From Neckera pumila (lineage: Eukaryota > Streptophyta > Bryopsida > Hypnales > Neckeraceae), in contig OZ018416.1 of NCBI GenBank assembly GCA_963969595.1, positions 15,888,065 through 15,952,064 of the forward strand: a DNA stretch of 64,000 nucleotides. The letters are read 5' to 3'. This document shows, one piece after another, positions 31,538 to 60,148 of this stretch (the first letter of the stretch is position 1; every line of letters begins with the position of its first letter). Under the pieces are notes generated by a model. It made no database searches and was not told the origin of the DNA. It saw only the letters and a program-made list of their open reading frames with translations. The position numbers and the translations under genes are program-made.

Positions 31538-31863
31538 TCACACTATAAAAAACCCATTTTTTTTTGTGGTGTCAAGCCTTGGACATGAATGTCCGTAAAA
31601 AACATCAAGTTGTCTATGAGTGGATGGCCAGTAGGGCTGGATTTCCATGGATGTTTGTCAGAGCGCTCAAAGATTTATGTGAAAACAGTATGATATTGTG
31701 ACGAATGATGGTGTTTTATTGGGCACAAATGATGGCATACGTCCATTTTTCAAAGTGTCCGCAAAAACATGGAGTATCATGTCAGTGCCCTTGGCTGTTT
31801 AGATTGTGGATAAGTCAATGAAAGTTATTGTGGTCTGTAGTAAAATGCCTATCCGAGGTTTAA

Positions 31864-32790
31864 TCCCTAAAGTTTTTTGACTGTGTTTTCACCAAAAACG
31901 CACGAAAATTGCCATTTCTAATACAAGTATCAAATTTAGAAAAAGAACATTTTTGGACATATGTAACCATAAGATATTGTAATGCACTAGTTTGAGAAGA
32001 TGTGGAAAAAATTTCAGAATTTTCCACTGTGCAGACTTCAAGATATTAGTGTTTGAATTGAAAAAAATCCTTTTTTTGGCCTTGCGACAAACCGGGCAGT
32101 TGCACTTCACAAGGTTACATTTGTATGAAACAATGTCCAAAATGGTGGTTATTCTTTGAATTCCTTTTTGAAGTCAATTTGGCTATATACTTGAAAAATT
32201 TTAGGTCATTTGAAATTGTACAACATATAGGAAAAAATAAGTAAGTAGAAAGAAGTAGAGAATGATTCAAAACACTAAATTGTTAAGGATCTAATTATAG
32301 AATTGAAAAATGCCAATTTCAATGGTTGCAATGTTGTAATAAACAATCTGCATCCAATGTTTTTAATTTAGAACTTTCAAATATATTGAAAATTGAGTTA
32401 AATAAAAGACTTCAAAGTTTATTTTAGGATAGAGATTCCAGAACTATCCACAAACTAAAACTCCTCATAATTTTCATTTTAATAATAAAAATAGAATGAC
32501 CCCAAATCTTTCCATGTATATATCAATCTAGAGAACCAATTTAAAAATTTTATATTTTTTACAAGTGATTTTTTAAGAATTTTTTGAGCTGCCTGCCAAG
32601 CATTGAAAACCACATGTCATACAATCTTTTTAACCATGCAATCAAAAGTTATGAAAACTGTTGGGCCTTAAAGGTGCTCCTTGAAAAAAGTGTTGTGTGA
32701 AAATTTCAACAAAAAAAATAAAAACTCTGCGCGTAGTGAGTTGCCTCCAAATGCTATGTTCTCAACAAAGTATGTTCGGTGCTTTAGAGG
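31864..32790. mobile_element. TTAA-flanked non-autonomous element, piggyBac-like, copy 4
   Basis: TTAA at 31,860-31,863 and 32,791-32,794. Termini TCCCTAAAG and the complement of CCTCTAAAGCACCGAAC. The right 390 bp match the right arm of copy 2; the left part matches copy 1. It lies about 320 bp inside the left end of the large CACTA-like element. Confidence 0.65.
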
Positions 32791-32794
32791 TTAA

Positions 32795-34560
32795 AAAAAT
32801 GGAGAAAGGCAGCCAAATGGCATACCCGTGGAAAAAAGGGAGCTTACCATCTGTGCTTGGTAAGTGATGCGGCATCAGATTGTGTTGACATGGCATGCCA
32901 CGCCAACATACTAGGATGCCTTAATGCACATTCGACAATGTCCTAGCAGGCATCCTAGCAGACATCCAAACGTTTTTTAAGATGTCAATGGAGACAATGA
33001 TGTTGTCTCTAGCATGTGACTGTCCTCTTTTTACGCATGCTTTTCATTGGAGACATTCCCTTCCATAGAGTGAGTCTTGGACGTTGATGCGAGTGTCTAT
33101 AGACGTCTTTGCAGATATCCATTGAATTTAGATATTACCTTCAGCGATGTCTATAAGAATATGGACATGTATTGTTTTGTGTTCATGTGTGACGCCATAG
33201 AGGAACAAGAAATATATACATATTTACAATAAGTGCGTCTATAACTTTCAATAATCGCAAATTTTTCTTCAATATTTGTTAGTGCACACAGATTGGAAGT
33301 GGGCATGGCAATTATAGGGGTCGAGAAGGTGCAAAGATGTTTGAGACTGCAATGTCTGTTGTGGAAGGGTCCAAACACGGAATTTTGACTATGAATTTTA
33401 AACTTCTTCTTGGGGCATTGTCATAGACAATGACAAATACGACATACACGATTACGTTAAGAGATCTTATACATGGCAATGACGCATGTCGCGCGCAGCA
33501 TGGAAAAGCAATATCACAATCTCTTGATAATTGCTTGTAAATTTGACCTTGTGCTTTGAAAAATATCTACGTGGATATTGTTCCCTCTACACTTTGGACG
33601 TCCTTACTAGTATCTGCTACTTGGGATACAAAATACTAGTTTACTTCCACATGCTACGCTTCATCTTCTGCTAATGCATTGTTATTTGCTACAACAATGT
33701 AGTTCCCATAAATATTGGTAGGAAGCCGAGTGAGACCCAACTCCCGCTTCAATAGTTGTAGTTCAGCAAAGTTAGTGTTGCTGTATAGCTAAACCATGTC
33801 AGGGCTAGTGTATATTACCTGCGTCTCTCTCTAACCTTGGTTTGGCACATAACATTTCAACCAAGTCAGTGTGGGTGGTTGGAGAAGAAAATCCGTTGGT
33901 AGTGTTGAAGAAACTCCTTCTCAAATAGAAATATTGCCATCATCACATTTTCATCAGGTCGTTGTTGTTGACCTCTCTAACTTTGTTTTTGCATAGTCTT
34001 TGAAAGACTTGATTCATTTTCATAATAGCCAAGTGCACATTTCTATCTTAGATGCTTTAAACAAACATTGATAGAAGGCCTTATTCGTTAAATTGAGACA
34101 AGTTGTAGTCTCATTTTAATACATTGTATATTTAGAATAAAACAAGTGTTCATTAATTTGAGAGTCTTCAATAAAATGAGACTTGACAAAGCCAAAATAC
34201 AATATTATACACTTTGCCAGTGCAAAAATACTAAAATAAGGTGCAAAAATCTATAAGGAACATTTAGATTTTTTTTTAGTTTCTTAAAAACATCGAGGTA
34301 CAACAATACAAGAGCTTATATAAAGAAATTGAAGGAAAAAGAAATTGCAATACAAAAAGCGCAATGACAAAGAATTTTTTTACTATTAATAGAAATCAAC
34401 ATTACCGCAAGACAACAACACTATCATCGAATGACATAAAATAAACCTGCAAGCATCTCAAAACATCTGAATGCAGAAGCGCATTCTACTTGAATCTCAA
34501 AAACAAAAATTATCAAACAAAACTACGAACTACTCCCCCGCATCTTCAGAAGATTCATCA
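32795..34560. other. Left subterminal region of the large CACTA-like element
   Basis: No gene. Contains GACATCCAAACGTTTTTTAAG and AGACGTCTTTG motifs at about 32,965-33,110. Their complements resemble the AATGTTTGGACATC and AACGTCTAGATG motifs near the right end. Confidence 0.5.
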
Positions 34561-34564
34561 TCGT

Positions 34565-37507
34565 TCAAATGAGACAAAAGGGTTGCCACCGATAATTTGA
34601 TGATGTTGATTTGTGCTTTGGAATTTTAACCTTTGTAACATCAGGTTCACCGTCAACTCCCATTTTTCCACGCGGCTTGAAAGCCGTCATAATACACCCT
34701 GTTTTTGCCCAGCACGGGTGAATTGGAGTATCCTTATGCCACACTATCCCTACATTTGTGTCCCATCCAGCGTATGTATCCAAATTGATGTGATAATCTG
34801 AAGCAGGCGTCCAATATTGAATTTGGATCAAGTTAACATGCCCCGGATTTGGATTTGGATTCGTGAGCGCCTTCGCAAGCCAAAACGGCTTTGGGTCTTT
34901 ATTAGCGGGACGCACCACGACAAAATAACCAGCAAACACATCACGGTTAACACAAAACGAATCTTGGGGACGATCTTTTCTTCGTCCAACGAAGGGTGGA
35001 TCCTCTGCAAACTCTTCACCCACTCTGCCGTTTTCGTCCATTGTGTCTTCCGGTTCAATAATGATCTCTGAAGCCGGCCAAAATCCATCGTCCAGTGTCT
35101 CGCTAGCCTACAGAGGTACATCTAGAGCAGCTCTCACACCTTTCCAATAACTTAGTATAGGCCCATTCTTCCTCCTGAACTCTCCCGATTGGTCATCGTC
35201 CGCCATACTGCTCCAATGTGCAATGAAACCAGGCAAACCTTTCTTGATATCATCAAGGGATTTCATATTTTGTGGAACCAAAGGTTGTAGACTATCGGCA
35301 GGCACTTTGGGACGGTCATCTACAGTCTCAGACCACAACCGAATTCCTTTGCCATCCTCTGGCAGCCATTTCTTGTCCGTACAAAGATGCTTATACTCCA
35401 TCAATGGCCATCCATTGGAATTCATGTGAAATTTGAACTACTGGGCCTTTGAATGACCTTCTAGAAAGTCCCCGCCTGCACCCAAATACCCTTGCACAAA
35501 ACGCTTGAAATTAGGAACTTCCTCAATGAAGTGAGGAATGACAAGGTGGGTTTCACAGTCCATGAAGGATTTCATAAGCCTTGGAATAGTTTGGTAGCTA
35601 TTCGTCTTCAACATAGTGCTCCATCGACCAAAAAGAGCATCAATATCTTCATGAGTGTGTCCAACAATGAGGAAGTTGATATATATCTCCCAAAAAATTC
35701 CTTTGAAAACAAGGAGAGAGCAGAAAGCAAAAACCCATCAGTTCTTGTTGTCCCTTGATGCATTGTCAAGCTGCAGAGTCAATATAGGTGGCAAAGGTTG
35801 GGTTGGAATCGGTTCTGGTGGAGGAGGAAGGAGGGAGTCCAGGCACATTTCCGAGCCCTGCAGTACCGCCTTTGTTAATGTAGATTGCCCCTCCTTAACA
35901 GCAGGCAATTTACGCGACGAATTCTTCGGCTCTCCTTCAAGATCACGCAATAACCTTGCAATAGATCCTATGGTGTGGTTAGAGTCTGTCGGGAGAATGT
36001 CTAAGCCATAATGCGCATACCGAACATCACCATGACCATGAGCAATGATGCCAGTAACAGCGACAGGCATCTTCATGAAAGAGTCTGTCGCCTTGGTCTT
36101 GTGAGAGATGTGCAGAGAAGCAGTCTTAGAGTGATCCATTTTATCATGAATGATGGTAAGCATCTTCTCAGGGTACTTCTCGGAAACATACCTATTTGAA
36201 TAATACAGTTCCCTATGGGCTTTTTGCCCCGCAAGATGAGCAGTCAATACCCTGCCCCATTTGCCCTGCGCACTAGAAAGAGGCGTACATGCGCTTCTTA
36301 GCTGCCTATACCTGTCACAAAGACCACACCTTGCAAACAAATCTCCACAAGCATTAGTAGCATATTCAGGAAACGAAGCACGCCGGATATTGCTCAAGCC
36401 GCTTGATGAAATAGACGGTAAATTCAACATTGCATTAGCCTCATTGATTTTTGGTAATTGGGCACTCCAAAGAAAAGCGGATGGTAACACCATTGCACGG
36501 ACCTTCTCCCCGGATTGAAGTGTCCTTGATTTGTGTGGCATTTGGTCGGCTTCACTTCCAAGTTCACATCGAAGTATGGCGGTAGCTTGTACAGTATGTG
36601 TACGGGGTTTTTTGGAGCCCAAGTTCCCATGTGCATCTGCTTGCTTCCCGAATTTGGCCATATGCTTATACATATAAAAGGTAGCTTTCAAAATCCCATG
36701 TATAATCCACCAAGCAGCAGGACATACTTCAATCTTCTTCAAAGTCACCCACTCTTTGCACGCATCGTCTTTGTGCATTTGTCTATGCACTTCAAGAAGA
36801 CATTTCTTGCGAGCGTACACACCATCAATTACATGGAGTTGGATACATATGGAACAAATTTCTCCACGTGGAAAAGGCTGGACACAATTCCTTTCGCAAC
36901 ATGTCATTGTAGACACTCGAAGGACAGCTTCAGTTGTAAGAAGGGATTCTTTTTTGGGAGAAACGCCCAATTTAAACCTCTCACGAGTACTTTGATAAGA
37001 ACGCACCCCAGTACAAACGCGGCGGTTTAATGCACTCATGCCCACATTGTATATGTGAGTCTGCTCATGGTCATATAGACTTACATTCTCCAAAAACACT
37101 TGTTTAATGTGCCATGAGTGCGCAGACCACATCCAAGCTGATGGGACTTCTGCCTCGCACAAAGACTCTGCAATTTGAACGGCAATTCGATCATCACCAA
37201 GTGGCTTCCCATCCATGTCAATGACAAGGTCAGCATCAACACTTTGGCAAATTCCTTTTGCAACGTCATCTCCAACTTCATTCCTTAAGGTAACAAAACT
37301 TCTTACCCAAGAGGAACGAGCGATACCGTTGCAAGGTTTGACACCTTCCGGTAAAATTGGTACCGGAATCGCAAACTCGCCCGGCTCATGGATATCCATC
37401 CTACAGATACAAGACACAATTAATGGCAAGTTCCGACAAAAATATTCCGCCTGCTTAAGCAAACTACCATAGACATTATAGTAGACAACAACAATTATTC
37501 TAAACAA
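34565..37507 (-). pseudogene. DDE-transposase-like protein with GHTHEDID signature
   Basis: One frame of 981 codons with only three internal stops: TGA 35,738-35,740, TAG 35,438-35,440 and TAG 35,108-35,110. Motifs in order: MDIHEPGEF (ATG at 37,397-37,399, just after a splice-acceptor-like CTGTAG), a Cys-rich middle part (TCCERNC, CSIC), HDKMDHSK, LQLDNASRDNKN, FLIVGHTHEDIDALFGRW, then a C-terminal part with FAGYFVVVRP and FWLAKALTNP. Large uncharacterised proteins with the block QLDN...NKN...GHTHEDID occur in animals, oomycetes and early plants (possibly Pfam DUF7869). The spaced Asp, Asp and Glu/Asp suit a DDE nuclease. Role as transposase of this element is inferred from its position and content. 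The stops fit CGA to TGA and CAG to TAG. Confidence 0.62.
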
Positions 37508-38320
37508 CCCAGACAGGTGTACAAATATTGCCTCACAGTTCGATATGTGAACTACTAGTACAAAAATAAGAAATCCTATAAATTAGCTTCAACACGAAGG
37601 CAAACCCTAAAAATGACACCCTACATTTTACTAAAAGAATATGGGATTACTGGGACATAATTTTCAGTGATAATACAGTACTGTCCTACCTGAAAAATTT
37701 ATATGTTTAACAACACAAAACACAACGCCCAACACTTTCAATTCCTTAACAAACGTTATAACAAACTTTAACACAATAAAATATTCCACAAGCCTATTAA
37801 ACAATCCAAGAAAGCCAATACCTACCAGATACCCAAAACATGATGACAAAATTACCTTAGACGCAAAGCTAATCCACCACCAAATATATGCAGTAAAGAA
37901 TCATAAAGCCAAAAGGTCAAAAGTCAGAATATATGTGACGAAAGTGCGACATTCACTCAACCCAAACGAAGGAAAAATATTACTCCCAAGCCAAAGGTAA
38001 AGACCCGTTAGATTAATTTTGCATAAGACAAAGTAAATGCTACTAGGAAAACAACATAAAAAAACGATGGCAACTTCTTGGAAAATATCAAACTGTTCTC
38101 AATATAATTAAAATCGAGCCGAGGAAAAAAAAACCCAACAACAGCCCGATCCATTATCCACGTCAAATATCGAAGAGTACAATCGATCTTATCAGAAACA
38201 TGTATAAAAATCCGATTCCAAAATAATCAACGAATATCTTCAAATACATTATTCACACTATTCTTCCTCCAATCACATTGTCTAAGAAAACGTCAAAAAA
38301 AACCCGGCCAGTGTTACAAT
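37508..38320. other. Probable 5' intron of the leftward transposase-like gene
   Basis: AT-rich, no open frame. On the minus strand it lies between a candidate first exon (about 39.3 kb) and the acceptor before the MDIHEPGEF exon. Confidence 0.4.
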
Positions 38321-38324
38321 TTGA

Positions 38325-39040
38325 GCTTTGACATGAATATAAATCCTAAGCACTCTTGCTCACGCCTAATTATCTTTGACTAGAAGATAAACCCAGAAAC
38401 AGTCTTCCTCACGCGGAATTATCATTGACAAGCACATAAATCCAAAAACAGTCCTGGTAAAGCGTAATTACCTTTGACACAAAGATAAATCCAGAAACAG
38501 TCCTGCTAATGTTTGATTAACATCAACACTAACATAAGCCCAGAAACAGTCTGGCTAATGAGTATTTACCTTTGACACGAAGATAAATGAAGAAGAAGTC
38601 TAGATAAGATGTACGTAATTACCTTCGACACGAAGATAATCCCTGAAGTAGACATCCTAATGCACAATTAACTTCGATACAAAGATAATCCTAGAAGTAG
38701 TCTTCCTATTGCTTAATTAGCTTCAACACGAAGATCAATACAGAATCAGTCTCAACAATACGTAATTCTCTTCGACCCTTGGACAAACCCTGAAACAACC
38801 TTCGTAATGCATAGTTCTCTTCGACACGAAGATAAGTAAACAAATTGTGTAGCTAACGCGTAATTATCTTCAGCACGAAGATAAATCCTAAATTTGTCAA
38901 TTCGAATGCAGAACTTTCTAATATACTAGATACAATTTCTGAAGCACTAACATGATTGCCGAATTACCTTCGACTCGAAGATAAATTCTGGAGTACTCCT
39001 TCCAAATTAGGAATTATCTTCGACACGAAGTTCCGGAATT
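38325..39040. repeat. 49-bp tandem repeat carrying the CTTCGACACGAAG palindrome, about 14 copies
   Basis: Units recur at about 38,372, 38,421, 38,470, 38,519, 38,568, 38,621, 38,669, 38,718, 38,768, 38,816, 38,866, 38,915, 38,965 and 39,015. The core reads TTACCTTCGACACGAAGATAA, followed by a CAGAAACAGTC-like spacer. It lies in the inferred leader intron of the leftward gene. The same palindrome forms arrays in the leader of the rightward gene at 43.8-45.4 kb. Confidence 0.88.
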
Positions 39041-39268
39041 TACGGCACCTTTTTAGGGGGGTGTTCCAGGGGTGCACCATCACAATTCAATAAGCAACTA
39101 TGCGGAACAAGACCAGCAAAACAGTTTGCTCATTCAAAGACCGTCCACTTCTCACTGTTCTGCTTACTCGTGGACGCATTGATAAACACAGCAATGAGAA
39201 GGGGAAGTGAGGCAAAGAACACATCGTACGGAAAACAACAAAGCGGAAGAATGCTTAGAGGAAACATA

Positions 39269-39293
39269 CCTTAATGAACAGCCTTCGCTCCAT
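39269..39293 (-). other. Candidate first coding exon and donor site of the leftward gene
   Basis: On the minus strand ATG (39,291-39,293) starts a short MERRLFIK reading that runs directly into GTATGT, a good splice donor. Upstream is a GC-rich leader. Only position and donor support it. Confidence 0.3.
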
Positions 39294-39815: not shown

Positions 39816-39843
39816 TTTAGGGTTTAGGGTTTAGGGTTTAGGG
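39816..39843 (+). repeat. Interstitial telomere-type repeat (TTTAGGG)4
   Basis: Four perfect copies of TTTAGGG, the Arabidopsis-type plant telomere unit, preceded by a complementary CCCTA. Too short to be a telomere end. It lies in the central intergenic part of the large element. Confidence 0.95.
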
Positions 39844-40179
39844 TCAGCAAAGAGATTGTATAAGTTTGGGGGATGGGAGGTTTGGGGTTTCTTTTGTTTT
39901 TCAAAAGTGGTGAAGTAGTGGAAAACAAAAAAATGATGTTGCAAAAATAATTAGTATTCATTTGTAGAATAAGTAGAACTTTTTTTTTATATACAAACTT
40001 AGACGAATTTCATTTAAAGTTGGTGGGTTCATCCAAATTATTTCAAAAAATGGATCCGCTTTGGCTATATATGGTCTTCTTTCTTTGATTATTTTCTATA
40101 GCCTTGGTGCCGGCCAAAAGAATTTTGGTGCACTTTGGCACCAAATCGGTAGGAAAAAAAAACAAAAAAACCCGATCAG

Positions 40180-41180
40180 ATGGAATGGCTATACTGTGGC
40201 AAACATTCCAAAAAATACGTTGAAATTGGAAGACACCTCACACTTATTGAATGCGAGTGCTTCAAATTTGTGGCCCAATTTCGATCGTGTGCTACTTGAA
40301 CAAAAGTAAACTGAATTAGCCATGACCTGTATGTTATGGAACTCGCATCAGGATTTAGGATTCAATGAAATATGTAGAAGTTGGAAAACAACTAAACATT
40401 TGTGATTTATGAGTGCCTTAAATTTGTGGCTTAAATACCTTTGTGTGCTACGTGAATGAAAAAAAAATTGAATCTGCCATGACCTGTACTGTATGCACTT
40501 TGCATCCCCAAACTCATAGAATTGGGTGGATGCAAACGTCCAAAAAATAGATAGAAGTTGGAAAACAATTGAACATTTGTGATTTACGAGTGCCTTAAAT
40601 TTGTGGCTTAAATAACTTTATGTGCTACGTGACTGAAAAAAAAATTGAATTCACCATGACCTGTACATTATGCACCTCGCCTCCCCAAACTCATAGAATT
40701 GGATGGATGCAAACGTCAAAATAAATACGTAGAAGTTGGATTACAACTAAACATTTGTGATTTATGAGTGCCTTCAATTTGTGACTTAATTACCTTTGTG
40801 TGGTACATGAATGAAAAAAAAAATTGAATTCACCATAACCTGTACTTTATGCACCTCGCATCCCCAAACTCATAGAATTGGATGGATGCAAACGTCAAAA
40901 GAAATACATAGAAGTTGGAAAACAACTAAACATTTGTGATTTACGAGTGCTTTAAATTTGTGGCTTAAATACCTTTATGTGCTACGTGAATGGAAAAAAA
41001 ATTGAATCCGCCATGACCTGTATTTTATGCACCTCGCCTTCACAAACTCATGGAATTGGATGGATGCGAACGTCAAAAGAAGTACATAAAAGTTTTAAAT
41101 ACATCTAATTATTTTGGATTTATGGTCGCCTCAAATTTTTAGCTTAATTTCTTGAGCTTTGTATGCGAATAAGATTTTAT
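40180..41180. repeat. 177-180-bp satellite-like tandem repeat, about 5.5 copies
   Basis: The marker CCATGACCTGTA recurs at 40,320, 40,477, 40,654, 40,833 (CCATAACC) and 41,011, giving steps of 157, 177, 179 and 178 bp. Other shared blocks are AAACTCATAGAATTGGATGG, ACATTTGTGATTTA and GAGTGCC. The period is in the usual range of plant satellites. It sits between the two divergent genes. Confidence 0.88.
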
Positions 41181-43799: not shown

Positions 43800-45410
43800 C
43801 ATTAGCCGCTACTACAATTAGATTAGCTTTGACTCGAAGCTAATGTCCTTAGGGTTTCCACCTTTACTTCATGAAAGTAAGCAAAGCAGCATTAGGGTAT
43901 CTATCCAAAATCTATGAAGCTCCACAAAAAATGAATATGACCTAAGCCTACAGTCGGATTAGCTTCGACTCAAAGATAATTTCTAAAGCTCTAGAAATTC
44001 AGCGCATTAGCTCAGAGAGGAGTTAAATTATCTTTGACTCGAAGATGATATCTAAAGCTCTAGCAATTCAGCAATTTTGCTAGGACTAGCGTTGAATTAC
44101 CTTTGACTCGACGGTAATTTCTAAAGCTTCCAAAATCAAACACATTAGCAAGGATTAAAGATGAATTACCTTCATCTCGAAGATGTTATCTCAAGCTCTA
44201 GAAAATCATCGCATTAGCTAGGTCTCCAGTTCGATTACCCTCGACTCGAAGGTAATTTATGAAGCTCCTGAAACAAAGTTATTAGATAAGATAGGATTTC
44301 GATTAATTTTGACTTCTCCGCGACTTATAAGTATCCTGAATGTATGCGCATAAGCCAAGATTAGAGTCCAACTTCCTACTAGTCGATAGTTGCTAACCTC
44401 GGCAAGAACTCAGCGGCATAATTTGAAATGAATACCTTCGACTCGAAGGTAACTACCCTCGAGTTGAAGATAAGGTTAAGCAATTGAGCAAGTTTGCTAG
44501 GACTAGCATTCGATTACCTTCGACTCGACGGTAATTTCTAAAGCTTCCAAAATTAAATAATTTAGCTAGAATTAGAGATGAATTAGCTTCGTCTCGAAGA
44601 TGTTATCGGAAGCTCTGGAAAATAGTCGCATTAGCTAGGTCTCCAGTTCGATTAACCTCAACTCAAAGGTGATTTACGAAGCTCCTGAAACTAAGTTATT
44701 AGCTAAGATAGGATTTTGATTAACATTGACTTCTACGCGACTCATAAGTATCCGGAATGTATGCGCATTAGCCAGGATTAGAGTTCAACTTCCTACTAGT
44801 TGATAGTTGCTAAACTCGGTAAGAACTTAGCGGTATAATTTGAAATGAATACCTTCGAGTCAAAGGTAACTACCCTCGAGTCGAAGATAAGGTTAAAGGT
44901 GGAATTGCCTCCTAGATTTATACAGCTCGCGAACTTCAGCCCTCAACCAGGAAATGCAATTTGAACTGTCCAGCTTCGAGGCGAAGGTATTCTTTCATAT
45001 AGCTGAAGATATTTATTCATTGAGCCGAAGGCAATTACACCCATAACATCATCAAAAATGTATCACTCTTAAGAAGTATTGCTAATAGAGACGCATAGTC
45101 ATTGGAGTTGATTAGCTTCGGCTCGAAGGTAATTAGCCTAAAGTAGAAGATAGGATTATAAAAGAAATCATCTCATTCCACTCCACGGTAATTGCCCTTC
45201 CATTGAACGGAAGAGTGATGTTGGTACCTTATTGTTGGCTGCAAAATATTTGAACTTATCTGTGACTCGAAGCTAATCTAGAAGTCCGTAGACTTCATTC
45301 TTAGAGAATCTTTGTCCTACACTCTGAATTAGAATCCACCCTATCAAAATAGTTTATTACCTTAACAATTTGTAGAGATAATGATTTATCCTCGTGTCGA
45401 GGATACATGA
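43800..45410 (+). repeat. Palindrome-bearing tandem array with 67-bp and 417-bp periods
   Basis: Copies of ATTAGCTTCGACTCGAAGNTAAT-type units occur at about 43,823, 43,957, 44,028, 44,095, 44,164, 44,231, 44,303, 44,437, 44,511, 44,581, 44,650, 44,719, 44,845, 45,110 and 45,386, typically 67-72 bp apart. A larger block beginning GCTAGGACTAGC at 44,079 is repeated at 44,496 (417-bp step). The array fills the inferred leader intron of the rightward gene, ending about 70 bp before its ATG. Confidence 0.85.
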
Positions 45411-45474
45411 GCCCCGACTACGTGTCAAAGACAAATCTGACCAGCGTAACATCGAATGTAGCCTTGGAAGATAA

Positions 45475-48472: not shown

Positions 48473-48645
48473 GTATGTTTCCTTCGGCTCAAAGATAATT
48501 TGTGTTGGATTAGAGTAGAGTTCAAGTTATCCTTAGATCATTTGTTACTGTCGTCTAATTATCAATTCTCTTGCGTGATTGGACTAGCTCCTGGATCCAT
48601 TATCTTCGATTCGAGTATATCATTCCGTGACATTTGTTTCTGTCT

Positions 48646-50270
48646 CGTATGTTCTCCAAATGTTTGGGGCTTACTTCTATGGACTGGTCCACAAGGATCT
48701 TACGGGGAGGCATCGAGACTTTGCGCTTTTGGCTCATTGTCTGGATATGAATGACTTCTTGCACTCCAGCTCCCCATACTCATTGAAATACTTGAGGCCT
48801 CTGTATATAGAAGCGCCGGTAATGACATCTGTGTCACCGCCTAAGGAGAATGAACTGCGCTCGCCACCTTCTTCCGAAGATGAAGTTACCCCAGTTCGTG
48901 AGCGTAGGGACTCGGGAGAAGGACTCCCTAACATTGACCAATACGGCACGATGTCTGGTGAAATGGACAGATGGGGGGCTGTTCGCCGTGAGACTACACA
49001 GGATGATAACATGCCTAGAGAGGATATTGAGTTAGATCCAGAGTACGAGGAGCTCCAACGTCAGAGGCAGTTGCGGCAAGTTGAATCGCAAGAAACACGC
49101 GATACACCTCAGAGAACCTGTCGTAAATCTCGTCGCAAATCGGCAGCCTCTACTTCCGCCAGTAAGAAGGACAAAGGACCAAAGCATCAAAAGATGAAGT
49201 CGGTCGTCAAGCACGTAGTGACTATTCTGAATGACATCGACATCGATACACTCCCGGCGGAGTTAGATTTTGACAGTGAAACTGGTAGTGAGGACGAGCA
49301 ACCCCCTGGGGACCAAACTGGTACCTCCTCTGTACCCCAGGTTAGCGATGTTGCTCCTGCCACATTGCCGGTTGATCCTGTTGCTCCACCCACATCCGCA
49401 GGTAAAGTCCAGACCGGGTATTGGGTTGCAAAGATGGAACGGAAGGATAGGAAACGAGTCCGGAAGCAGGCATAGCAGGATATTCTTGACAAGAAAGACC
49501 AGCAGATTGCGGAAGCTCTCCATGTGAGCCAAGAGGCGCAGGAGAAGATCGACAAGCTTGAGCGACAGATGAAAGAGTTTTTTGAAAGCCAGTCCCGCAT
49601 GTCCGTATCTCAGTTTGCGCCTCTTCCTAGCCAGGTTCAATCGGAGCATCCAGCAATTCCCTTGGCCTCCGCACCTGGCTTGACGCAAGAGGCTCGCAAT
49701 CTCGTTAGTGGTTTGGCAGATTCACAAGTTCAAGATTCCGGTCCGCCAGTAACCCTTGTCGACGAGGCCGAAGTTCTTCACACCCCTGCACCCCAGATGG
49801 TTGATGTTCAGATTCCCTCCTCTACAACGGCCGATGAATTCGTGCCGGAGACTCAGCTCATCGCTTTGTCTGTGGCACCTAGGCAAGGGTCCAGGAGTTA
49901 TCCTTGAGTCGAGGATAATGATGAGGCTATTGGTTCACAACCAATTCTGCCTCTGGTGCCCCGTGCATCTACTGCGAAGACAGCAGCAGTGGTTCCGGGG
50001 GTTGCTCTACCTCTGACCTCCGAGCACGAGGTCAAAAAGGCGTTTCCTGTCGCTTCCCTTGATGACAAGCAGGTAGATTATAGAGACGACGAAGAGTCCC
50101 TGCGCGACAATGTTCTGAGGAGGTCGACGAAATTCTGCAGGAGGTGGCAGCGGTGGAGGTTGTGGATTTCTAGCCTCACGAGTCAATTGAGGTATACTCT
50201 TCTGACCCGTATGACTTTGTATGAGACCATGGGTGTGTTCTCTTGCTTGTCTGCGTCTCTTTTCCTTTAG
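48646..50270 (+). pseudogene. Charged, low-complexity middle exon of the rightward gene
   Basis: One frame continues from FGAYFYGLVHKDLTG through an acidic and basic linker (RKSRRKSAAS), a DIDIDTLPAELDFDSETGSEDE stretch and a coiled-coil-prone segment (KIDKLERQMKEFFES). Internal stops are TAG 49,473-49,475 and TGA 49,905-49,907. The TGA lies inside a copy of the TCGAG palindrome (49,898-49,918), where CGA would read through. A frameshift near 50,118 probably moves the frame to EEVDEILQEVAAVEVVDF. The acceptor at its start is unclear: CTCCAA just before ATGTTTGGGG may be a mutated CAG. No catalytic domain is recognised. Confidence 0.45.
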
Positions 50271-51279
50271 AGATTATCACTTATACTGTATTTATTTTGC
50301 TTGACAGGAGGATTGTCCTTGATTGTTTGGCGTTTACGGACACTTCTGTGATTGCCGTCCGTGTAAACTAGTGTAGCATAGGATTGGCCTATTTTTGTAG
50401 CCCCGTATGGTGGCTTTAGTTTACGGATGTATTCTGTAATCTTTGTAAATAAAATCTACCGTATTTAAATCCCATACATGGCAATCTAATTGTATTCTCT
50501 TGTCCATGTTTTTTTGCTCAGCACAAAACCACTAAAAGCTTGCTCCGTCCAATGGCAATGAAACCACTTCCTCACGGGAGCAAGCACTTGATTAGTGGAA
50601 TTCAATGCTCCTACCCGTTGTCTGGCTCTCCAAATTCCGCATTCAAACAAGTAACTCTATTTCTTTGTTGTTTTTCTTTGATCAGGTAGAATCGCAGGGC
50701 CGCGGAGAGGTCGTGCCAAGGAATGTGTTGCCAGTAGTGCCTAAACACCAAGGGAGGTGGCTAAACATTGTCTTTGACCTTAATGGCATTCTCTGCCAGT
50801 GCGACCCCAAATCATATGCTAAAAATCTAATGCAAAACCGGATCGAAGACAATGTATTAAGCCACACAAATTCCACCATTGTTGGACCAAAGGTGGTATT
50901 TGCTAGGCAAAATCTGCGCGAATTCTTGCGTGAGGTGTCTCGCGTCGCGGACAGGGTCGTAGTGTGGTCCTCAATGATGCATTCCACGGTGGAATTGATC
51001 ACGGACTTCCTATTCAAGGGAAACAAAGCCCCCTTCGAACTCCTAGGTCAAGAACACTGCATGAAGATAGAGACCCGTAAAGGGAAGTTCTTGTCGCGTG
51101 GCCCTAAAACCGTCTTTCTGAAAGTCTTGTCCGAGCGGGTGTTTACGCTTGCGTGTGAGGGCGCATCCTTCACCGCGGACAACACCATTCTCATCAACAA
51201 CTCCCTAGAGAAGAGTCTCTGCAATGAGAGGTGGAATGCAATTTTCCCCCGTACGTGGAGTCATGCAGAAGGAGAGGAC

Positions 51280-51529
51280 TGTTGAAGTTAGAGAGTGACT
51301 TTAGTTAGGAGTTGTTTGTAGCCAACCAAGGTGTTATTAGAGAGGGACAACGTGATATTAGAGAGGGGCAGCTTTCTATGTTAATATACTCCATAAGGTT
51401 AGTTATGGCACTTGTTAGTAGAGTAGTATAAGAGGGCAACCCCTTGCTTGGGTTTTTTTATCTCTTCCTTGTACTTGTTTGTGTCCTCTTTTCATTGGAA
51501 TACAAAGCCTTTGTGTTTTTCTTACAATA
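51280..51529 (+). repeat. 5' LTR of the copia element (250 bp)
   Basis: Matches 56,207-56,498 almost completely. It has two copies of a 21-bp ATTAGAGAGGG unit where the 3' LTR has four. The following GGTTATGGGGCC is the expected primer-binding position but is not a clean initiator-Met match. Confidence 0.95.
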
Positions 51530-51702
51530 GGTTATGGGGCCCACTCATGTGAGTTGCTATTAGAGGTGAGATCGCTTTGCAAAGGCGTGTTGGAGGCGCA
51601 CTGCTGAAGTTGAGAGCAACTGGAGTTGGAGGTCGTTTTTGGAGTTTTTTAGCAAGATCTTATTCTTTGAAAAGGTATTCTTTTGCATCAAGTGTTATTT
51701 TT

Positions 51703-52215
51703 ATTGTGAATGTTGGTTGTGAGATTTGAGAACCATTGAGGGTTAATTTGAGTTGTTGTGATCATTTGGAGTCACATTGGAGAGATTGCAACCACGTGAG
51801 TGTTGGTTGTGAGATTTGAGAGCCATTGAGGGTTGATTTGAGTTGTTGTGATCATTTGGAGTCACATTGGAGAGATTGCAACCACTTGAGTGTTGGTTGT
51901 GCGATTTGAGAGCCATTAAGGGGCTGATTTGAGTTGTTGTGATCATTTGGAGTCACATTGGAAAGATTGCAACCGCGTGAGTGTTGGTTGTGAGATTTGA
52001 GAGCCATTGAGGGGCTGATTTGAGTTGTTGTGATCATTTGGAGTCACATTGGAGAGATTGCAACCACGTGAGTGTTGATTGTGGGATTTGAGAGCCATTG
52101 AGGGGCTAATTTGAGTTGTTGTGATCATTTGGAGTCACATTGGAGAGATTGCAACCACCTGAGTGTTGGTTGTAAGATTTGAGAGCTATTGAGGGTTCAT
52201 TTGAGTTGTTGAGAA
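51703..52215 (+). repeat. 91-bp tandem repeat in the copia 5' leader, about 5.6 copies
   Basis: GAGTGTTGGTTGTGAGATTTG recurs at about 51,796, 51,887, 51,978, 52,069 and 52,160, with a partial first copy near 51,705. Each unit includes TTGAGTTGTTGTGATCATTTG and CATTGGAGAGATTGCAACC. It gives rise to spurious minus-strand ORFs. Confidence 0.92.
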
Positions 52216-52242
52216 CTTTATTAGAGTAGGAGACGTGGCACT

Positions 52243-55200
52243 ATGGCCACAGGTGAGGGAGAGGGTGTTCGGATCATTGACAAGTTCAATGGAGAGAACT
52301 TTGGCTTGTGGAAGTTCAAGATGGAGATGATCTTGGCAGAAAAGGACTTGTGGGAGATTGTGGAGGACTCCGAGGAGCCTCCTCCTTCCGACGCTGATCC
52401 CAAGGCCAAGAAGTCTTACGAGAAGAGGGTGAAGAAGGCCTTCTCCATGAATGCTTGCAATCTTGTGGATAGGCAACTTGCACACGTTCGATCTTGCAAG
52501 GGACCGGCAGAAGCATGGAAGGTGCTTTGCAACATCCATGAGACTAAGAGTTTGTCCAATATTCTCTTTACTCGCCGCAAGTTTTTCACGTGCAAAATGC
52601 AAGAGGGAGAAGACATGCTTGACCACATCAACAAGGTCAAGGGGCTGGCGGACCAACTTGTTTGCTTAGAGGCACCTTTGACGGATGGAGACATTGTCAT
52701 GACTCTTCTCGAAAGTTTACCCACTTCTTTTTAGTATCTTATTACGGCTTTGGAGACAAGATCCATGAAAGAGCTCACCCTTGAGTATGTGACGGCAAGA
52801 TTCATGCACGAGGTATCCAAGAGGAAAGAGAATGAATCTAATGAAGGAGGGGCAGCTCTTATCTCACGACACGGGAAAGGAGAGGCGTCTCAACCACGCA
52901 AAGAGACACGTACATGCTACAATTGTGGTCAAACCGGCCACCTTGCAAGGAATTGTTGGAAGTCTAAGAAGGAGAGTGCCAACAAAGCGACAGTCACTGA
53001 AGTGGAGGAGGATTTTGCATTTGCGGCAAGTGATGGCTATGATGATTGCAACATGTTCAAATGGATTATTGATTCGGGGGCCACGCAACACATGACACCA
53101 CAGAGACAAGCTTTTCTCACCTACCAACCCATTAGCAACCGCAAGGTGTATTTAGGTGACAATGTCATGGTGGAGGCCATTGGCATGGGATGCATTGTGG
53201 TGGAGGTCAATGTCAAGGGAGTGATGAAGAAGATTCGCATTCAAGATGTATTGCATGTGCTCAAGTTACATGCCAATTTGTTCTCGGTGAGCAAGTTGGT
53301 GTTACAAGGCTTGAAGGTGCAATTCAACAACCAAGGTTGTATTTTGGGGGCACCAAATGGAGAGCCGATTGTCTTGGCACCCAAGCAAGGCAACTTGTAC
53401 CAACTTGAGTTCAAAACGGTGAATGGTTCAAGTTGGGCTTATATAGCTCAAGATGCAATGGTGCAAGACACTGTGGAACTTTGGCATAAGAGATTGGGGC
53501 ATCTAAATGTGAAGAGTGTAAAGGCTCTTTCAAGCATGGTGGGTGGCATGCAAGTGAAGAAAAGCGCTTGCGATTTGACGTGTGAGGCTTGCATTGAAGA
53601 CAAGCAAGCGAGGAAACCATTCCCGACCGAGGGAGCAATGAGGGCAGCCAAGGTATTGGAGATTGTGCACTCCGATGTATGCGGCCCCATGAAGACTACT
53701 TCTATAGATGGTGCAAGATATTTCCTTATCTTCATTGATGACTTTTCGAAGAAAGTGTGGGTGTTCATGCTAAAATGCAAAAGTGAGGTGTTTGAGAGGT
53801 TCAAGGCATGGAAGGCCCTTGTAGAGAATGAGAGTGGTTATAAGCTTAAGGTATTGAGATCGGACAATGGCGGTGAGTATATGTCCAAAGCATTTGAGGC
53901 CTTTATGAGGGAACATAGCATTCAACATCAAACTTCAGCGTCACACACTCCACAATAAAATGGTGTAGCGGAGCGTGCCAATCGTACGCTTGTAGAGATG
54001 GCTCGAGCGATGTTGCATGCACAAAGCTTCAAATATGAGTTTTTGGCAGAGGCTGTATCCAATGCAGCATACATACGCAATCGGTGTCCCACAAGTGTGG
54101 TAGCATCGATGACACCGCAAGAGGCATGGAGTGGAAGAAAGTCTAACATTGGCCACATGCGCATCTTTGGATGTATGGCCTATGCCTTGGATTTGAACCC
54201 TCAGCGATCCAAGCTTGATGCCAAGGGCATTAAGTGCTTGTTTTTGGGCTATTGGGAAGGTTCCAAGGCTTATCGACTCATGAATTTAGAAACTAAGAAG
54301 ATCTTTAAGAGTCGAGATGTGACCTTCATCGAAGATAAGAGGGAGGATAGCAAGTCTTTGGAGATGTGTCCAAGTGGGAGCAATGGAGACTTTGAGGTGG
54401 ACAAATCTCCAAGTTTGCAAGAAGTGGTAACAGAAGACAAAGACGAGCTGATGACAACACTAACACCAAAGAAGAAAGTGAGTGTAGCTCCAAGTGATGA
54501 TGGTGGTGAAGGAAAGACGTCCCAGAAGCCAAGATATCCCACGAGAGAGCGCAGGCCACCTGGAGAATGGTGGATGAATCACATTTTGCCACAACACCAA
54601 GTGGAGCGTGCAAATGTAGCGTTTGTGAGAGATCCAAATACCATGGAGGAAGCCATGAGAAGTGCGGATGCAAGCAAATGGGAGCAAGCCATGCAAGCAG
54701 ATACGTCTCGCTTATGAGTAAAAGTACATGGGAACTTTCTTCCCTTCCTTCCGATCGCAAGAGTATTGGATGCAAATGGGTGTTTTGCACTAAGAGAGAT
54801 GCCTTGGGCAACATTGTGCGCTACAAGGCCAGATTGGTAGCCAAGGGATATTCTCAAGTTGAGGGGGTGGACTTCAATGAGACCTTTGCACCGGTGGCCA
54901 AGTTTTGCACCATTCGATGTATGGGGGCCATAGGGGCAGCCATGGACTTAGAGATGCACCAAATGGATGTCGTCACGGCGTTTCTCAATCCACACCTTGA
55001 GGAAGTCATCTTCATGGACCAACCCAAGTGTTTTGTTCAAGAAGAGCGAGAGCAACTAAAGTGTAAATTCAAGAAGGCCATCTATGGATTGAGACAATCA
55101 GGGAGAGCATGGTACATGGATATAGATGCCTTATTTGCAAAGGCAGGTTACAAAAAGAACCACGCGGACCATTCTCTTTACATCAAGCAAACAAACGAGT

Positions 55201-56225
55201 CCTTGGTGATTATCATCGTTTATGTGGATGATTTGATCATCATGACAAACACCATGAAGATAATGGAGGAGGTCAAAGCTATGTTGAAGAGCGAGTATGA
55301 CATGAGTGACCTCGGTGAGCTACACTATTGCCTTAGCGTGGAGTTTCAAAGGCAAAGGGCGGCGCGCACCATTACCATGAGCCAAAGCAAGTACATTAAG
55401 GAGGTATTGAAGCGCTTCAACATGGAGGAGTGCAAGGCCATTGGCACGCTACTTGATGTGCATTCAAAGTTGGAGAAGCTCACGGATAAGGAATATGAAG
55501 CTGTGAAGGTGGAAATGCAAGATGTGCCATACAAAGCTGCGGTGGGGAGCTTAATGTATGCCGTGGTAGCCACAAGGGCTGATCTTGCATTTTCCATGAG
55601 TGTGGTGAGCCAACATATGGCCAAGAGCGGTCCAAAGCATTGGGCCGCAGTGAAGAGGATCATGCGGTACCTCCAAAGCACATTGGAGGCCAAATTGGTC
55701 CTTGGAGGCAAGAGTCTTGCATTGGTAGGCTTTTGTAATGCAGATTGGGCTGGAGATGCAAGCGATCGCAGGTCTACATCGGGCTATGTGTTTATGCTTG
55801 GAGATGGTGCCATTTCGTGAAATTTGAAGAAGCAATCCACTATTGCATTGTCTACCACCGAGGCGGAATACATGGCCATTAGTCAAGGCACAAGGGAGGC
55901 GATCTGGTTAAGACAGTTGTTGAGTGATGTTGGCCTTGAGCAAGAGAAGAGCACACCTATCATGTGTGACAATCAAGGCGCCATTGCCTTGGTAAAGAAC
56001 CCGACTCACCATTCTTGGAGTAAGCACATTGACATCCAACACCATTTCATTCGAGAGAAGGCTGAAAGCAATGTGATAGAAATGAGGTACATACCTACAG
56101 AGCGCATGGTAGCGGATGTGCTTACCAAGGCTCTTGCAAAGCCTCGCCATGAAGTTCTTCGCGTAGAGATGGGTTTGACATTGTTTGGCAACAAACAAAG
56201 TGGGAGTGTTGAAGTTAGAGAGTGA
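52243..56225 (+). pseudogene. Copia Gag-Pol polyprotein
   Basis: Starts MATGEGEGVR at 52,243. In order: the gag domain, a CCHC zinc knuckle CYNCGQTGHLARNC, protease WIIDSGATQHM, pre-integrase LWHKRLGHLN, integrase catalytic residues in HSDVCGP and SDNGGEY, reverse transcriptase with CKWVF..KARLVAKG and YVDDLII, and RNase H with ADWAGD, STTEAEY and KHIDIQHHFIREK. Breaks: TAG 52,732-52,734, TAA 53,956-53,958 (TPQ-stop-NGVAER, CAA to TAA), a one-base frameshift near 54,705, and TGA 55,818-55,820 where tryptophan is usual. It makes the retrotransposon's structural and replication proteins; this copy cannot do so alone. Confidence 0.95.
56195..56206 (+). other. Polypurine tract of the copia element
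   Basis: Purine-rich AACAAAGTGGGAG directly precedes the 3' LTR, the usual place for plus-strand priming. Confidence 0.65.
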
Positions 56226-56498
56226 CTTTAGTTAGGAGTTGTTTGTAGCCAACTAAGGTGTTATTAGAGAGGGACAGCGTGATATTAGAGAGGGATAGTA
56301 TGATATTAGAGAGGGACAGTGTGATATTAGAGAGGGGCAGCTTTCTATGTTAATATAACCCATAAGGTTAGTTATGGCACTTGTTAGTAGAGTAGTATAA
56401 GAGGGCAACCCCTTGCTTGGGTTTTTTTATCTCTTCCTTGTACTTGTTTGTGTCCTCTTTTCATTGGAATACAAAGCCTTTGTGTTTTTCTTACAATA
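56207..56498 (+). repeat. 3' LTR of the copia element (292 bp)
   Basis: Same as the 5' LTR except for two extra 21-bp units (42 bp) and about four substitutions. Confidence 0.95.
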
Positions 56499-56648
56499 AG
56501 GACGACTTCCTTTTGGGGTCCCTTCTGCGTGGCTCCGACGTCTTCAATCGGATTGCGGGTAGGGTCGTCTGCGGGACTATATGCACAGAAGTCGAATTGG
56601 ATCAAATCCTGCGGGTGCTTCGGACTACGTTGTGCAGCACATCTTGAG

Positions 56649-56966
56649 AGGGATGAGAGAGTCCGCCCGGAACCTCGGGTCCCGTTTCAAACTTTCAGAA
56701 ATAAATGTAGTGATAGAGCCGGGCGGACATAGGACCTAGGTCTCGCTATAGTCTCACGCATTAGGACTTGATGACATTCTCCCCATTGTATGGTGACTAT
56801 GGTACATACATTTGTAAATATATATTATGTATTGGAAGTTAACCATTGAAAATCTGTGTATGCTTTGTGTCAATTCGTGTCATTCACATTTGGACATGCG
56901 TCTCTTGTGGATCCTTGTGTCGAGGATAGTGTATGTGAAACACCTGGATATCTATACTTCATGCAG
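56649..56966. other. Intron or untranslated part of the rightward gene
   Basis: No open frame. Contains a palindrome-related GTGTCGAGGATAG at about 56,918 and ends in an acceptor-like CTTCATGCAG. Confidence 0.4.
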
Positions 56967-57841
56967 GTGGGAGCTCTTTCTGTAATGCTGTCAACCAAAC
57001 GACAAAAGCTATCTAGGAGCCTCATTTCCGGGTCGGAGAAGTCGCTGTCCCTATCATCTGGATCCGCATCTGCATGAGGAAGCACTGGACCGTCTCTTTT
57101 GTCAGGACCTTACATGATGCATACTGCGGAAGACGCTGCATCAACGGCCATTGACTTTTCGAAGGGGGGAGTGGAGGACGGCGTCGTGGATAGTCCCCCG
57201 AGTCGAGGACCAGTGCGGACCCCATTTGCTCCCCGTCCCCTCTAAAACGGGCATCCTCGACTCGAGAGGGCTCTTTCTCACCCACTCCTCGAGCGGAAGC
57301 CGCGACGAATCGAAGACTCAAACTCCACGTCAGCGAAGGTCAGGCACAACCTTGCCTTGAGGATGCGGTCGACGTGAGCGATGTGGAGTCGGTGGGTGTA
57401 CGTGGCGTCGATTCCAGGAGTGCGCAGTACTTGTCTTTCACTGCACCTCGTTTGCCTCAGCTCGAGGATAGTCGACCTCGTCCTTCACAGTCTGTCAAGG
57501 CGCGGCGGTTGCCATCCACAGACAGTGTCTATAGACAAAGGTATCTTCGAGATCATCGACGGTCTTTGGACTTTAGATCAATTGGATTGGGGAGTCCATA
57601 CATAAACAATGTTGGTATGTTGCTACCAGGCCTGCCTCCCAAGGGTTCCAAAGCGCATTCTGCCTCCGAGGTTCAACGAAGCACCCGCAAACTCAAACGG
57701 AAAGTCACTGGATCTCAAAGTGTGGAAGTTGGAGGAGCGATGCACTATCCTTCTCGACGCGAGGATATCTTGAAGGCACTCCGTAAACAAAAAGCGTTAG
57801 AGGCAGCGAAGGGCAATTGTACAACCTATAGTGATGCTTAG
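56967..57841 (+). pseudogene. Basic C-terminal exon of the rightward gene
   Basis: Starts after the acceptor ATGCAG. The first frame has stops TGA (about 57,075) and TAA (about 57,242). After an apparent one-base shift near 57,330 a second frame stays open to TAG-type termination at 57,839-57,841, ending KQKALEAAKGNCTTYSDA. It is serine- and arginine-rich with no recognised domain. TCGAG-type palindromes lie at about 57,252, 57,461 and 57,746, as elsewhere in this gene. Membership in the same gene is inferred from those motifs. Confidence 0.4.
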
Positions 57842-59382
57842 TGAATGAAGAAAATTTTCAGAGCTCTACGCTTCTGACCCATGTTTATTATTAATAGCAT
57901 AGTAAATATCATACAAAGAAAATGATTCAGGAAAGTAGAGAGCTTTATGTACAAAGGGCCTCTTCAATTTCTACATAGTCACATAGACTTTACAAACTCA
58001 AAGGTTTATAATTCATTCAATTCAGATTAAATTCATCTTAAAGAAGCTTATTGAATGTAAATTCACTCGTTTTTCTATTTCCCAAGTACTTGAGCAACAA
58101 AATATTTTTTGATGTTTTGATATATTCCTAAAACTCCGCTGTCTTGTTTTATTTCATTTGCCTTGCTGTCTTTAGTAATTTCTATCATTGTTGTAAGCAA
58201 AGGATTTGTTTATCTTTGGATTCACCAACTAGTACTTCAAAACAACTTCACACCCTCATTTTCAAAGTCTCAAAATAACCATATTGTCTCAATTTAACGA
58301 ATAAGGCCTTGTAGAATCTTCATAAGAACAGGAACTAGTGCATTAGGTAAAATTAAGTGCTGCATTTCTCGCACATTAATGTTTACGGAGTAGGGGACAT
58401 TTCCACAATTTGTTGTAGTGCATAAAGGCTATAATCATGTTGAATATAACTTCACTAGTACAAATGTCTCTGCGTGAATGTTGTAAACAACAATAACATG
58501 TCCGTTAGGACATCATGCATGTCTTGTACAACATCCCTGTGCAACTACTACTTGTAGCACAATTTCTGCGTTTTATATATCCCACATGGTTTGTCTTCCC
58601 TCTTACCACCTCATTTGTATAAAGAACTTGTCTTGTCCTCCTGTATACGTCACAATAAGTAGCTTTTAAAGCCATGTGATATAGTTGTAAAATAGAGTGT
58701 ATTGTGTATGATATGCTGTATTGGACAATATATTTGCATTAACATTATAAATGCATATGTGCATAATGTAAAACACGTGTGAATGTCCATACTAACATTA
58801 TATTGAATAGTGCATTCAATCACATGAACATCAAAGATGACCTCATTTTGTCCAAATGAATCATGCTAAACATTTCAAGAGGTATTGATGATGGAATGGA
58901 GATGTCTAAGATAATGTTGCAAAACATCTAGACGTTTAAGTTGATGTTGCAAGAAATGTCTTAGAAAACGTCTAGATGTCTAAATTGACGCCTCAAAAAA
59001 TGTTTGGACATCAAATTTGACAACTCGTAAAATGTCTCAAAAAATGTCTGGACGGCATAAACTATATTGACTAGGCTTGGTACATCACTTTTCCCACAAA
59101 AATGTCATGTTCTATGTCACCTTCTATGTCTTTGATGGGCCACATGAAAAAAATTTAAGTGGTCTTTGTCGCCAATGTGGCATTAATGTAGCAACCACAT
59201 GGAAGAGTTTCAGAAGCCTCTAAACCCATGTCCCTTCCAATGTGATAAAAAGCTTGAAGACATCTGGCTATGTTATTTGAGATTTTCGCTACTTTTGGCA
59301 TGTAAACCATGACGCAAAAAAAAAAGATCTACGCTGGCGTGAAAAGACACTGCAAACAACAGGCGAATGTCAAAAACTGTCG
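57842..59382. other. Right arm of the large CACTA-like element
   Basis: No gene. AT-rich, with subterminal motif copies at about 58,890-59,060 (AAAATGTCTGGACG, AAACGTCTAGATG, AATGTTTGGACATC). Confidence 0.5.
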
Positions 59383-60110
59383 GGTCATTGCAAGAAACAC
59401 CAACACTTTGAATTGTCACAAAGAATTTGTGGAAGCTTCCTTTTGTGATAACTTTTAAAGCATAATTCGCATGAAGTTGAAATTTTTGTTGAAGGTGGTT
59501 GTCTTGTGGTTAATCATAGCTCATATTTTTCAGAAATTTTAAAAAATCATTTTATATTTCAATTTCAGTTAGTAAATTTGTCACGTTTTGCAATTTAGGG
59601 GTTTTGAGTAAAAAGGAGTCCCCAAATTTAATGATTTAGAGTTGGAATTTCTATGTTTTATTTGCATAGTAGGAATGTATGTTTCTACCAAGGGGAATTG
59701 AAAAATATTTTATTTTGTGTTGTCTACATCCATGCAAAGAGGGCTCTTTTGCGCATGCAATTCTAAACATTTCAGATGGTTTCAAGATCAAATTTTTGGT
59801 CAAATTTCTTTACTATGAAGTCTTCCCAAATGGTCTAATTTTACTTTATTTGAAAATTGTTTTTCTTATTTTTTACAAATTAAAATGTCAAAGTATGTAT
59901 TATCTTCAAAAGTTCAGCTCACTCTTTTTTGTGAATAACTTTTGACCTAGATTTTTTTTAAGATCTAAAATTTGGGGGATATACTAGTTTTAGTCTTATA
60001 TAAATTATACTTATTTTATTTTGTTTTTAAAAATTCATATGCAAAAGCTCATGAATATTAGAGTACTAGTTGAAAACAGGCCAAAGTGGTTGGTATTTCT
60101 TGCAACGACC
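59383..60110. mobile_element. 728-bp MITE with 28-bp imperfect terminal inverted repeats
   Basis: Left end GGTCATTGCAAGAAACACCA, continuing ACACTTTG; the right end complement is GGTCGTTGCAAGAAATACCA, continuing ACCACTTTGG. No clear target duplication and no coding region, so the superfamily is unassigned. It sits 35 bp inside the right end of the large CACTA-like element. Confidence 0.65.
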
Positions 60111-60148
60111 TTGTGCACCTGGGAAAATACAGGTTTTTTATAGTGTCA

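Follow-up and report, generated by a model that had tools for sequence, protein, structure and literature searches.

A giant, probably Sola1-like transposon nested in a CACTA-ended element of Neckera pumila, with a ParB-like accessory unit and a candidate 21-bp binding site

The 64,000-nucleotide stretch of the Neckera pumila genome analysed here (contig OZ018416.1, positions 15,888,065 to 15,952,064; hereafter the window) holds one transposon inside another. The inner, gene-bearing element occupies positions 34,075-58,310 (24,236 bp, or about 19.0 kb without a nested 5,219-bp copia retrotransposon) and has struck an older CACTA-ended element of about 4.4 kb, the remains of which lie at 31,541-34,074 and 58,315-60,145. 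An initial annotation had described a single 28.6-kb CACTA transposon with cargo, about 21.7 kb without its nested insertions; the genes do travel in one large DNA transposon, but it is not a CACTA element, and both its bounds and its length differ from those first given. The inner element has defined ends and target-site duplications, its gene order is conserved between families, and its genes are under purifying selection. We consider it likely that the window is explained by two nested elements, the inner being of Sola1 type with a predicted palindrome-binding accessory regulation.

The inner element is bounded by terminal inverted repeats (TIRs) of 27 bp, at 34,075-34,101 on the plus strand and 58,284-58,310 on the minus strand, the right being the perfect complement of the left. 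Next to them stand the plus-strand target-site copies ATAG (34,071-34,074) and GTAG (58,311-58,314). When the ParB-like frame of the window (45,688-46,926) was searched against its own genome (339.5 Mb, 18 contigs; best 101 of 256 candidates scored), at least 105 matching rows were obtained; besides the window, these comprise about ten copies at 81-92%, with the rest mostly at 23-57%. From 35 kb fetched around one such match came a sister copy, C4:12262430-12281066, of 18,637 bp, flanked by an exact ATAC/ATAC duplication. The in-register alignment of this C4 copy with the window is confined to 34,071-58,310 (large pieces 91-96% identical, some short pieces 83-95%), and the borders of both copies carry the TIR AAGGCCTTATT[C/T]GTTAAATTGAGACAA. 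The initial annotation had taken the CACTA ends as the bounds of the cargo and had proposed the alignment of full copies; the sister copy holds the cargo within its own 27-bp TIRs, with neither CACTA ends nor the copia element.

These ends recur across the genome: with three or fewer mismatches allowed, the TIR pattern was matched 327 times, against 0 for the reversed control. Within the first 100 listed places are 14 face-to-face pairs at 15-35 kb spacing, and 13 of these 14 pairs enclose a ParB-like row (the exception is C10:12909646-12934860). At the junctions of 10 of the 14 pairs, the 4-bp duplications are exact in seven (AATC, AATT, TTAA, GTAT, TTAT, ATAT, and AAAT), equal at three of four positions in two, and at two of four in one. 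Counting all 13 copies examined (the 10 pairs, the C4 copy, a C9 copy, and the window), nine duplications are exact, three agree at three positions and one at two, and they are mostly NWWN. The C9 copy (C9:12699529-12719435; 19,907 bp; exact CAAA/CAAA duplication) belongs to a diverged family in which the ParB-like part is 35% identical to that of the window; the order of the genes is the same there, and the element likewise has a 27-bp TIR of this type and a duplication of 4 bp.

Two further observations concern these searches. Many single ends of the TIR variant GTTAAAATGAGACAA are unpartnered among the first 100 places listed; these could stem from related families or from short derivatives. 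At least 39 of the 105 listed ParB-like rows, many of them with stops, are on C11 (12.3 Mb, 3.6% of the genome), which is possibly a sex chromosome or one that does not recombine.

Empty sites were sought with the flanks of the inner element joined and one target copy dropped (350 + 350 bases; best 40 of 720 candidates scored). Among the 44 rows listed, 8 cross the joint, 2 are the two halves of the window itself, and 34 are one-sided. The joint-crossing rows are found at C5:26794239 (query positions 15-696, 74%) and at C1:17935219, C1:19590348, C7:13055952, C11:4307470, and C4:31026586 (76-83%), with shorter ones at C3:35038128 and C10:19280850 (76-78%). The initial annotation had suggested looking for empty sites lacking 31,541-60,148; the joint-crossing rows are paralogues of the host repeat with no interruption, and what they lack is only 34,075-58,310 and one 4-bp duplication.

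The CACTA ends are real, but they are a property of the older, non-autonomous host. As first reported, CACTATAAAAAACC at 31,541-31,554 and its exact complement at 60,132-60,145 are both present, each with TCA outside. The real window contains a single inverted 14-mer pair that starts with CACTA, has equal flanks of 3 bp and spans no more than 40 kb, and 0 of 60 Markov (dinucleotide) shuffles contain one; inverted 14-mer pairs as such, whatever their sequence, are frequent (169 in the real window vs a shuffle mean of 11), and the 14-mer itself is not enriched genome-wide (175 matches vs 287 for the reversed control). Alignment to L075, the C5 locus, opens at window position 31,542, that is, at the CACTA terminus, which reads TACTATAAAAAACT in L075, and it ends at about 58,709, so that the last 1.4 kb of the host is placed from its terminus and flank only. 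In 7 of 8 other fetched loci, the exact 14-mer is followed by YRYRTTTT, the same as at the right end of the window. The two plus-strand halves joined measure 4,365 bp and hold no transposase gene of their own. With its CACTA ends and one insertion flanked by TCA/TCA, the host resembles CACTA/EnSpm elements, a superfamily assignment suggested by those ends. The subterminal motifs formerly said to recur inverted at both ends were not recovered: comparison of the outer 2.5-kb ends gave, as the best match, the 14-bp TIR itself (E 0.047), and the only strong inverted repeat inside 31,541-60,145 is the TIR of the inner element (30 bp, E 3.7e-7).

One 28.6-kb CACTA element with captured cargo was therefore rejected on the sister copy and the empty sites, and we regard it as highly improbable. 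The exact 14-bp TIRs with their TCA/TCA flanks, a pair that no shuffle reproduced, would be expected of such an element; but the C4 copy stops at 34,075 and 58,310, other copies have the same inner ends with 4-bp duplications, and the paralogous sites lack the inner part alone. Unlike CACTA/EnSpm elements, the gene-bearing element ends in AAGGCC...GGCCTT instead of CACTA...TAGTG, makes duplications of 4 bp instead of 3 bp, and has a DUF7869 transposase.

A separate observation on the left part of the host is a repeat of about 0.94 kb (31,856-32,800) with a very high copy number. An 870-bp query gave 7,996 first-look candidates, of which the best 40 were scored to yield 44 rows; 43 of these 44 match that part only, and most are about 87% alike.

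The transposase gene of the inner element lies on the minus strand at 34,754-37,399, with three in-frame stops and with approximate borders taken from alignment to an open copy of 889 amino acids (aa). Its protein, which the initial annotation had rightly called DDE-like, belongs to Pfam DUF7869, as does that of the open relative in the diverged C9 family (L079:1551-4217; 889 aa; E 1.6e-45). The gene was present in all six copies inspected (window, C4, C9, C2, C11, and C3, the last partial). The ratio of nonsynonymous to synonymous substitution rates (dN/dS) is 0.13 between families (dS about 2) and 0.22 between window and C4 copy. HDKMD, LQLDN, and HTHEDID supply candidate acidic residues, chosen by eye. 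Searches of viral contigs with the transposase and with the ParB-like part found no relative at the sensitivity used, nor did a search of prokaryotic contigs with the transposase.

On the opposite (plus) strand lies an accessory unit of at least four exons, with borders set by eye and GT-AG introns except for the acceptor of exon 3, which is AA in the window. Exon 1 (45,475-46,884; one in-frame stop in the window copy) holds the ParB-like NGQHS motif, exon 2 (47,147-48,472; one in-frame stop) a methylase-like motif at its 3' end, and exon 3 (48,660-49,880; 3' border uncertain) a PY motif followed by a low-complexity charged part. The next exon, encoding an NIF/FCP1-type phosphatase, runs from 50,686 to 51,279, with its remainder at 56,504-56,735, and the last open frame, at 57,194-57,841, is conserved in the diverged family. 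The phosphatase is split by the nested copia retrotransposon already noted in the initial annotation (51,280-56,498, plus strand; AGGAC duplication; long terminal repeat pieces about 97% alike), which is no part of the inner element. Of the cargo first proposed, the FCP1-type part is confirmed by Pfam PF03031 (35.7 and 47.7 bits in two families; cut-off 21.8), with an NCBIfam dullard-like match of 33.1 bits that is below its cut-off of 139; the ParB-like part is present as a motif, and the methylase-like part is recognizable by motif only.

The accessory genes are under purifying selection: dN/dS of the ParB-like part is 0.16-0.58 over eight pairs (0.31 for window vs C4), and that of the phosphatase is 0.26, with dS saturated in two between-family estimates. 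The window copy itself looks inactive: its transposase is broken by three stops, accessory exons 1 and 2 hold one stop apiece, and the copia element sits in the phosphatase. The C9 copy has an open transposase, yet a stop in accessory exon 2.

The inner element also carries many sites of a 21-bp palindrome, TTATCYTCGANTCGARGATAA. A search with the pattern TTATCTTCGANTCGAAGATAA (five or fewer mismatches; controls are means of 10 shuffles) found 32 sites in the window element vs 0.2, 27 in the C4 copy vs 0.1, 15 in 10 kb of the diverged C9 family vs 0, and 6 in 5 kb of L077, from a 43% family, vs 0. The C4 flanks have 0 vs 0.2, and the remaining 39.8 kb of the window 2 vs 0.4. The sites form arrays upstream of the transposase gene (37,583-39,034) and of the ParB-like gene (43,823-45,406), with two more in intron 1 (46,906-47,002), two in intron 2 (48,478-48,620), and one near the end of exon 3 (49,898-49,918). 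By the exon borders used, none of 29 sites in the window and none of 24 in C9 is coding (four or fewer mismatches to a degenerate consensus; 8.2 kb of coding DNA each). Since the site at 49,898 and those at 6,876 and 7,086 of L076 are inside frames open in the C4 copy or L076, up to 1 of the 29 and 2 of the 24 may be coding.

A consensus-free count of odd palindromes agrees, though less strongly, giving 9 (0.65), 12 (1.0), and 9 (0.9) in three full elements and 4 (0.3) in L077, with shuffle values in brackets. The 21-bp palindrome is kept across families in which the ParB-like part is only 36-43% alike, while nucleotide alignment between the C4 copy and the C9 family survives in the TIR, the coding DNA, one palindrome pair, and a TTTAGGG repeat. 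In a few sites of L077, the half-site is changed on both arms, GTATTGTCGACTCGACAATAA, as would be expected if a symmetric dimer coevolved with its site. A regulator encoded by the element probably binds this palindrome, in a logic resembling that of VANC (discussed below).

The TTTAGGG repeat (39,816-39,844, plus strand) is retained in the diverged C9 family on the same side of the element, so the palindrome is not the sole conserved non-coding feature. Telomere-like repeats of this unit are seen in the C9 element at 5520-5547 and 5672-5717; in both families they lie on the stretch that leads from the transposase gene to the element's middle. In the window element, this non-coding middle also contains a tandem repeat of about 179 bp (40,367-41,147; 4.4 copies), with more copies apparent in C4.

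A published giant transposon shares the plan of this element. Sola1-1_Ec32 of the brown alga Ectocarpus is 21.5 kb long. On the strand opposite its transposase it encodes a protein of 1104 aa in which a ParB-like domain is combined with a DNA methyltransferase domain, and the authors propose that ParB-methylase proteins of this kind bind and modify their own transposon (PMC12477816). The inner element is similar in its giant size (18.6 and 19.9 kb in the two full copia-free copies) and in its opposite-strand gene with ParB-like and methylase-like motifs. New by comparison are the plant (moss-like) host, the NIF/FCP1-type phosphatase, the degenerate catalytic motifs of the methylase-like part, and the mapped 21-bp palindrome. 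The Ectocarpus proposal names no target site in the part of the source available, whereas here a candidate target is visible, in the form of about 30 palindromes per element, mainly non-coding, that persist between families in which little of the remaining non-coding DNA can be aligned. This makes the self-binding proposal directly testable, and it shows such an element in a plant, with its accessory genes under purifying selection. For green and red algae, the Ectocarpus paper cites reports by Iyer et al. (2011) and Petroll et al. (2025).

The comparison with VANDAL21 of Arabidopsis concerns layout. VANC is the anti-silencing protein of such elements; self-encoded, it binds a motif repeated in their non-coding DNA and removes methylation. 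As shown for VANC21, tandem arrays of a short motif are found there upstream of genes and within introns and differ between related families, a layout matched by the palindromes here, the motif being the 9-bp YAGTATTAY and not a 21-bp palindrome (PMC5735166). VANDAL, unlike the inner element, is a Mutator-like element (MULE). To our knowledge VANC is not ParB-like, and we compare the two for likeness in logic, seen here in motif layout only, with no claim of homology. Fungal TET/JBP DNA transposons are similar in carrying a DNA-modifying enzyme as cargo and different in both superfamilies and enzymes (PMC12730594).

Taken together, these features suggest how the inner element may work. The DUF7869 protein would cut and paste it by a DDD/DDE mechanism, and the accessory protein of the opposite-strand unit would bind the 21-bp palindromes as a symmetric dimer. 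Bound before both genes and in introns, it would then regulate the genes of the element or lift their silencing, in the manner of VANC in VANDAL elements, and the phosphatase may act on the transcription machinery at the element. A more specific proposal, which we put forward tentatively, is that of a land-plant giant transposon whose ParB/methylase-derived protein, of bacterial ancestry, has lost both catalytic sites, now binds nothing more than the 21-bp palindromes in the promoters and introns of the element, and brings an NIF/FCP1-type phosphatase that keeps the element transcribed and un-silenced, a VANC-like strategy of independent origin.

Several points weigh against the reading of a Sola1-type element with palindrome-binding regulation and should be kept in mind. 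The target duplication of the window copy is imperfect (ATAG/GTAG, equal at three of four positions). In ParB domains, the pocket arginine lies in GxxRxxA. In the exon 1 consensus of 24 family sequences, iiNGQHSi...W...iVW..D...IS..YN.tNH...QPTW..qI, serine stands in its place, and NGQHS is exact in 17 of the 24. The active-site pocket of the ParB/Srx superfamily has a conserved arginine, and this arginine is reported to be important (PMC5512222). Homology to ParB or to methylases was not significant in Pfam, NCBIfam, PHROGs, PDB, or profile-profile comparison. The last, made against 6 of the 370 phage ParB-methylase fusion records found, gave probabilities of 0.6-1.0% for ParB (reversed controls 0.3%), with the expected IINGQHS / IIAGHGR segment as the best stretch, and 0.3% for the methylase (reversed control 0.1%). 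AlphaFold, run on the single sequence of the ParB-like part, gave no usable model (predicted local distance difference test score, pLDDT, 30). The ParB and methylase labels hence stay at the level of motifs, and it is the published plan of Sola1-1_Ec32 that lends them weight. The palindrome has 0 sites in 4 kb of L078, a 23%-identical relative; odd palindromes exceed the shuffles outside the element too (8 vs 1.55) and in L078 (2 vs 0.25), in both cases without the TCGNNNCGA core; and, since a TTTAGGG repeat is conserved between families as well, conservation of a non-coding motif does not by itself mark it as a protein target of the system.

N4/N6 DNA methylases have a motif I of the form DxFxGxG and an NPPY-like motif IV. 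The end of exon 2, ELxMEFYxxILQxF...NVLGxxxGxKFxxAAK, resembles a decayed motif I, which reads GIY, GIE, or GLY, without the aspartate, in all three aligned families, and two of the three have SSPY or NLPY as their PY motif. Against this decay, NPPY is retained in the C9 family and the plan is that of the Ectocarpus element (PMC12477816); methylation of the element's own DNA by an active accessory enzyme, as proposed for the algal proteins, nevertheless seems to us improbable. We give somewhat more room, though still as a doubtful alternative, to the palindromes being bound by the transposase (in a TnpA-like or repressor-like role) or by a host factor, with the ParB-like protein doing something else, as one array lies directly upstream of the transposase gene as well; the palindromes, however, crowd before and within the accessory gene, away from the TIRs on which a transposase has to act.

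On its anatomy, the inner element can probably be classed as a giant Sola1-like transposon. Sola elements have DDD transposases and 4-bp duplications (the value is that of PMC10741241); they are known from Physcomitrella and may be longer than 15 kb (PMC10741241, PMC9033089). The inner element makes 4-bp duplications, a feature common to Sola1 and Sola2, and its orientation and motifs fit the plan of the giant Sola1 subtype, for which the profile tests of the ParB and methylase parts were not significant. AT-rich 4-bp duplications also occur in Sola2, including an amoebozoan element with a long transposase (888 aa in one amoeba) and an accessory gene; that gene is a Fanzor, and no ParB-like gene is mentioned in the part of the source available (PMC3627910). 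Pfam knows the transposase solely as DUF7869, a term not found in the literature searched. It is conceivable, if rather unlikely, that this DUF7869 transposon belongs not to Sola1 but to a different superfamily, be it Sola2 or one without a name, and owes its ParB/methylase plan to convergence or cargo exchange. What favours Sola1 is the element's length, the ParB-methylase-like gene on the opposite strand, and the fact that Sola1 is listed for Physcomitrella.

Elsewhere in the window, at 22,778-26,824, an Ulp1-like protease was noted by eye, with no Pfam match, in a region of open reading frames that resemble those of a MULE, including a SWIM finger at E 0.0011, just below the cut-off.

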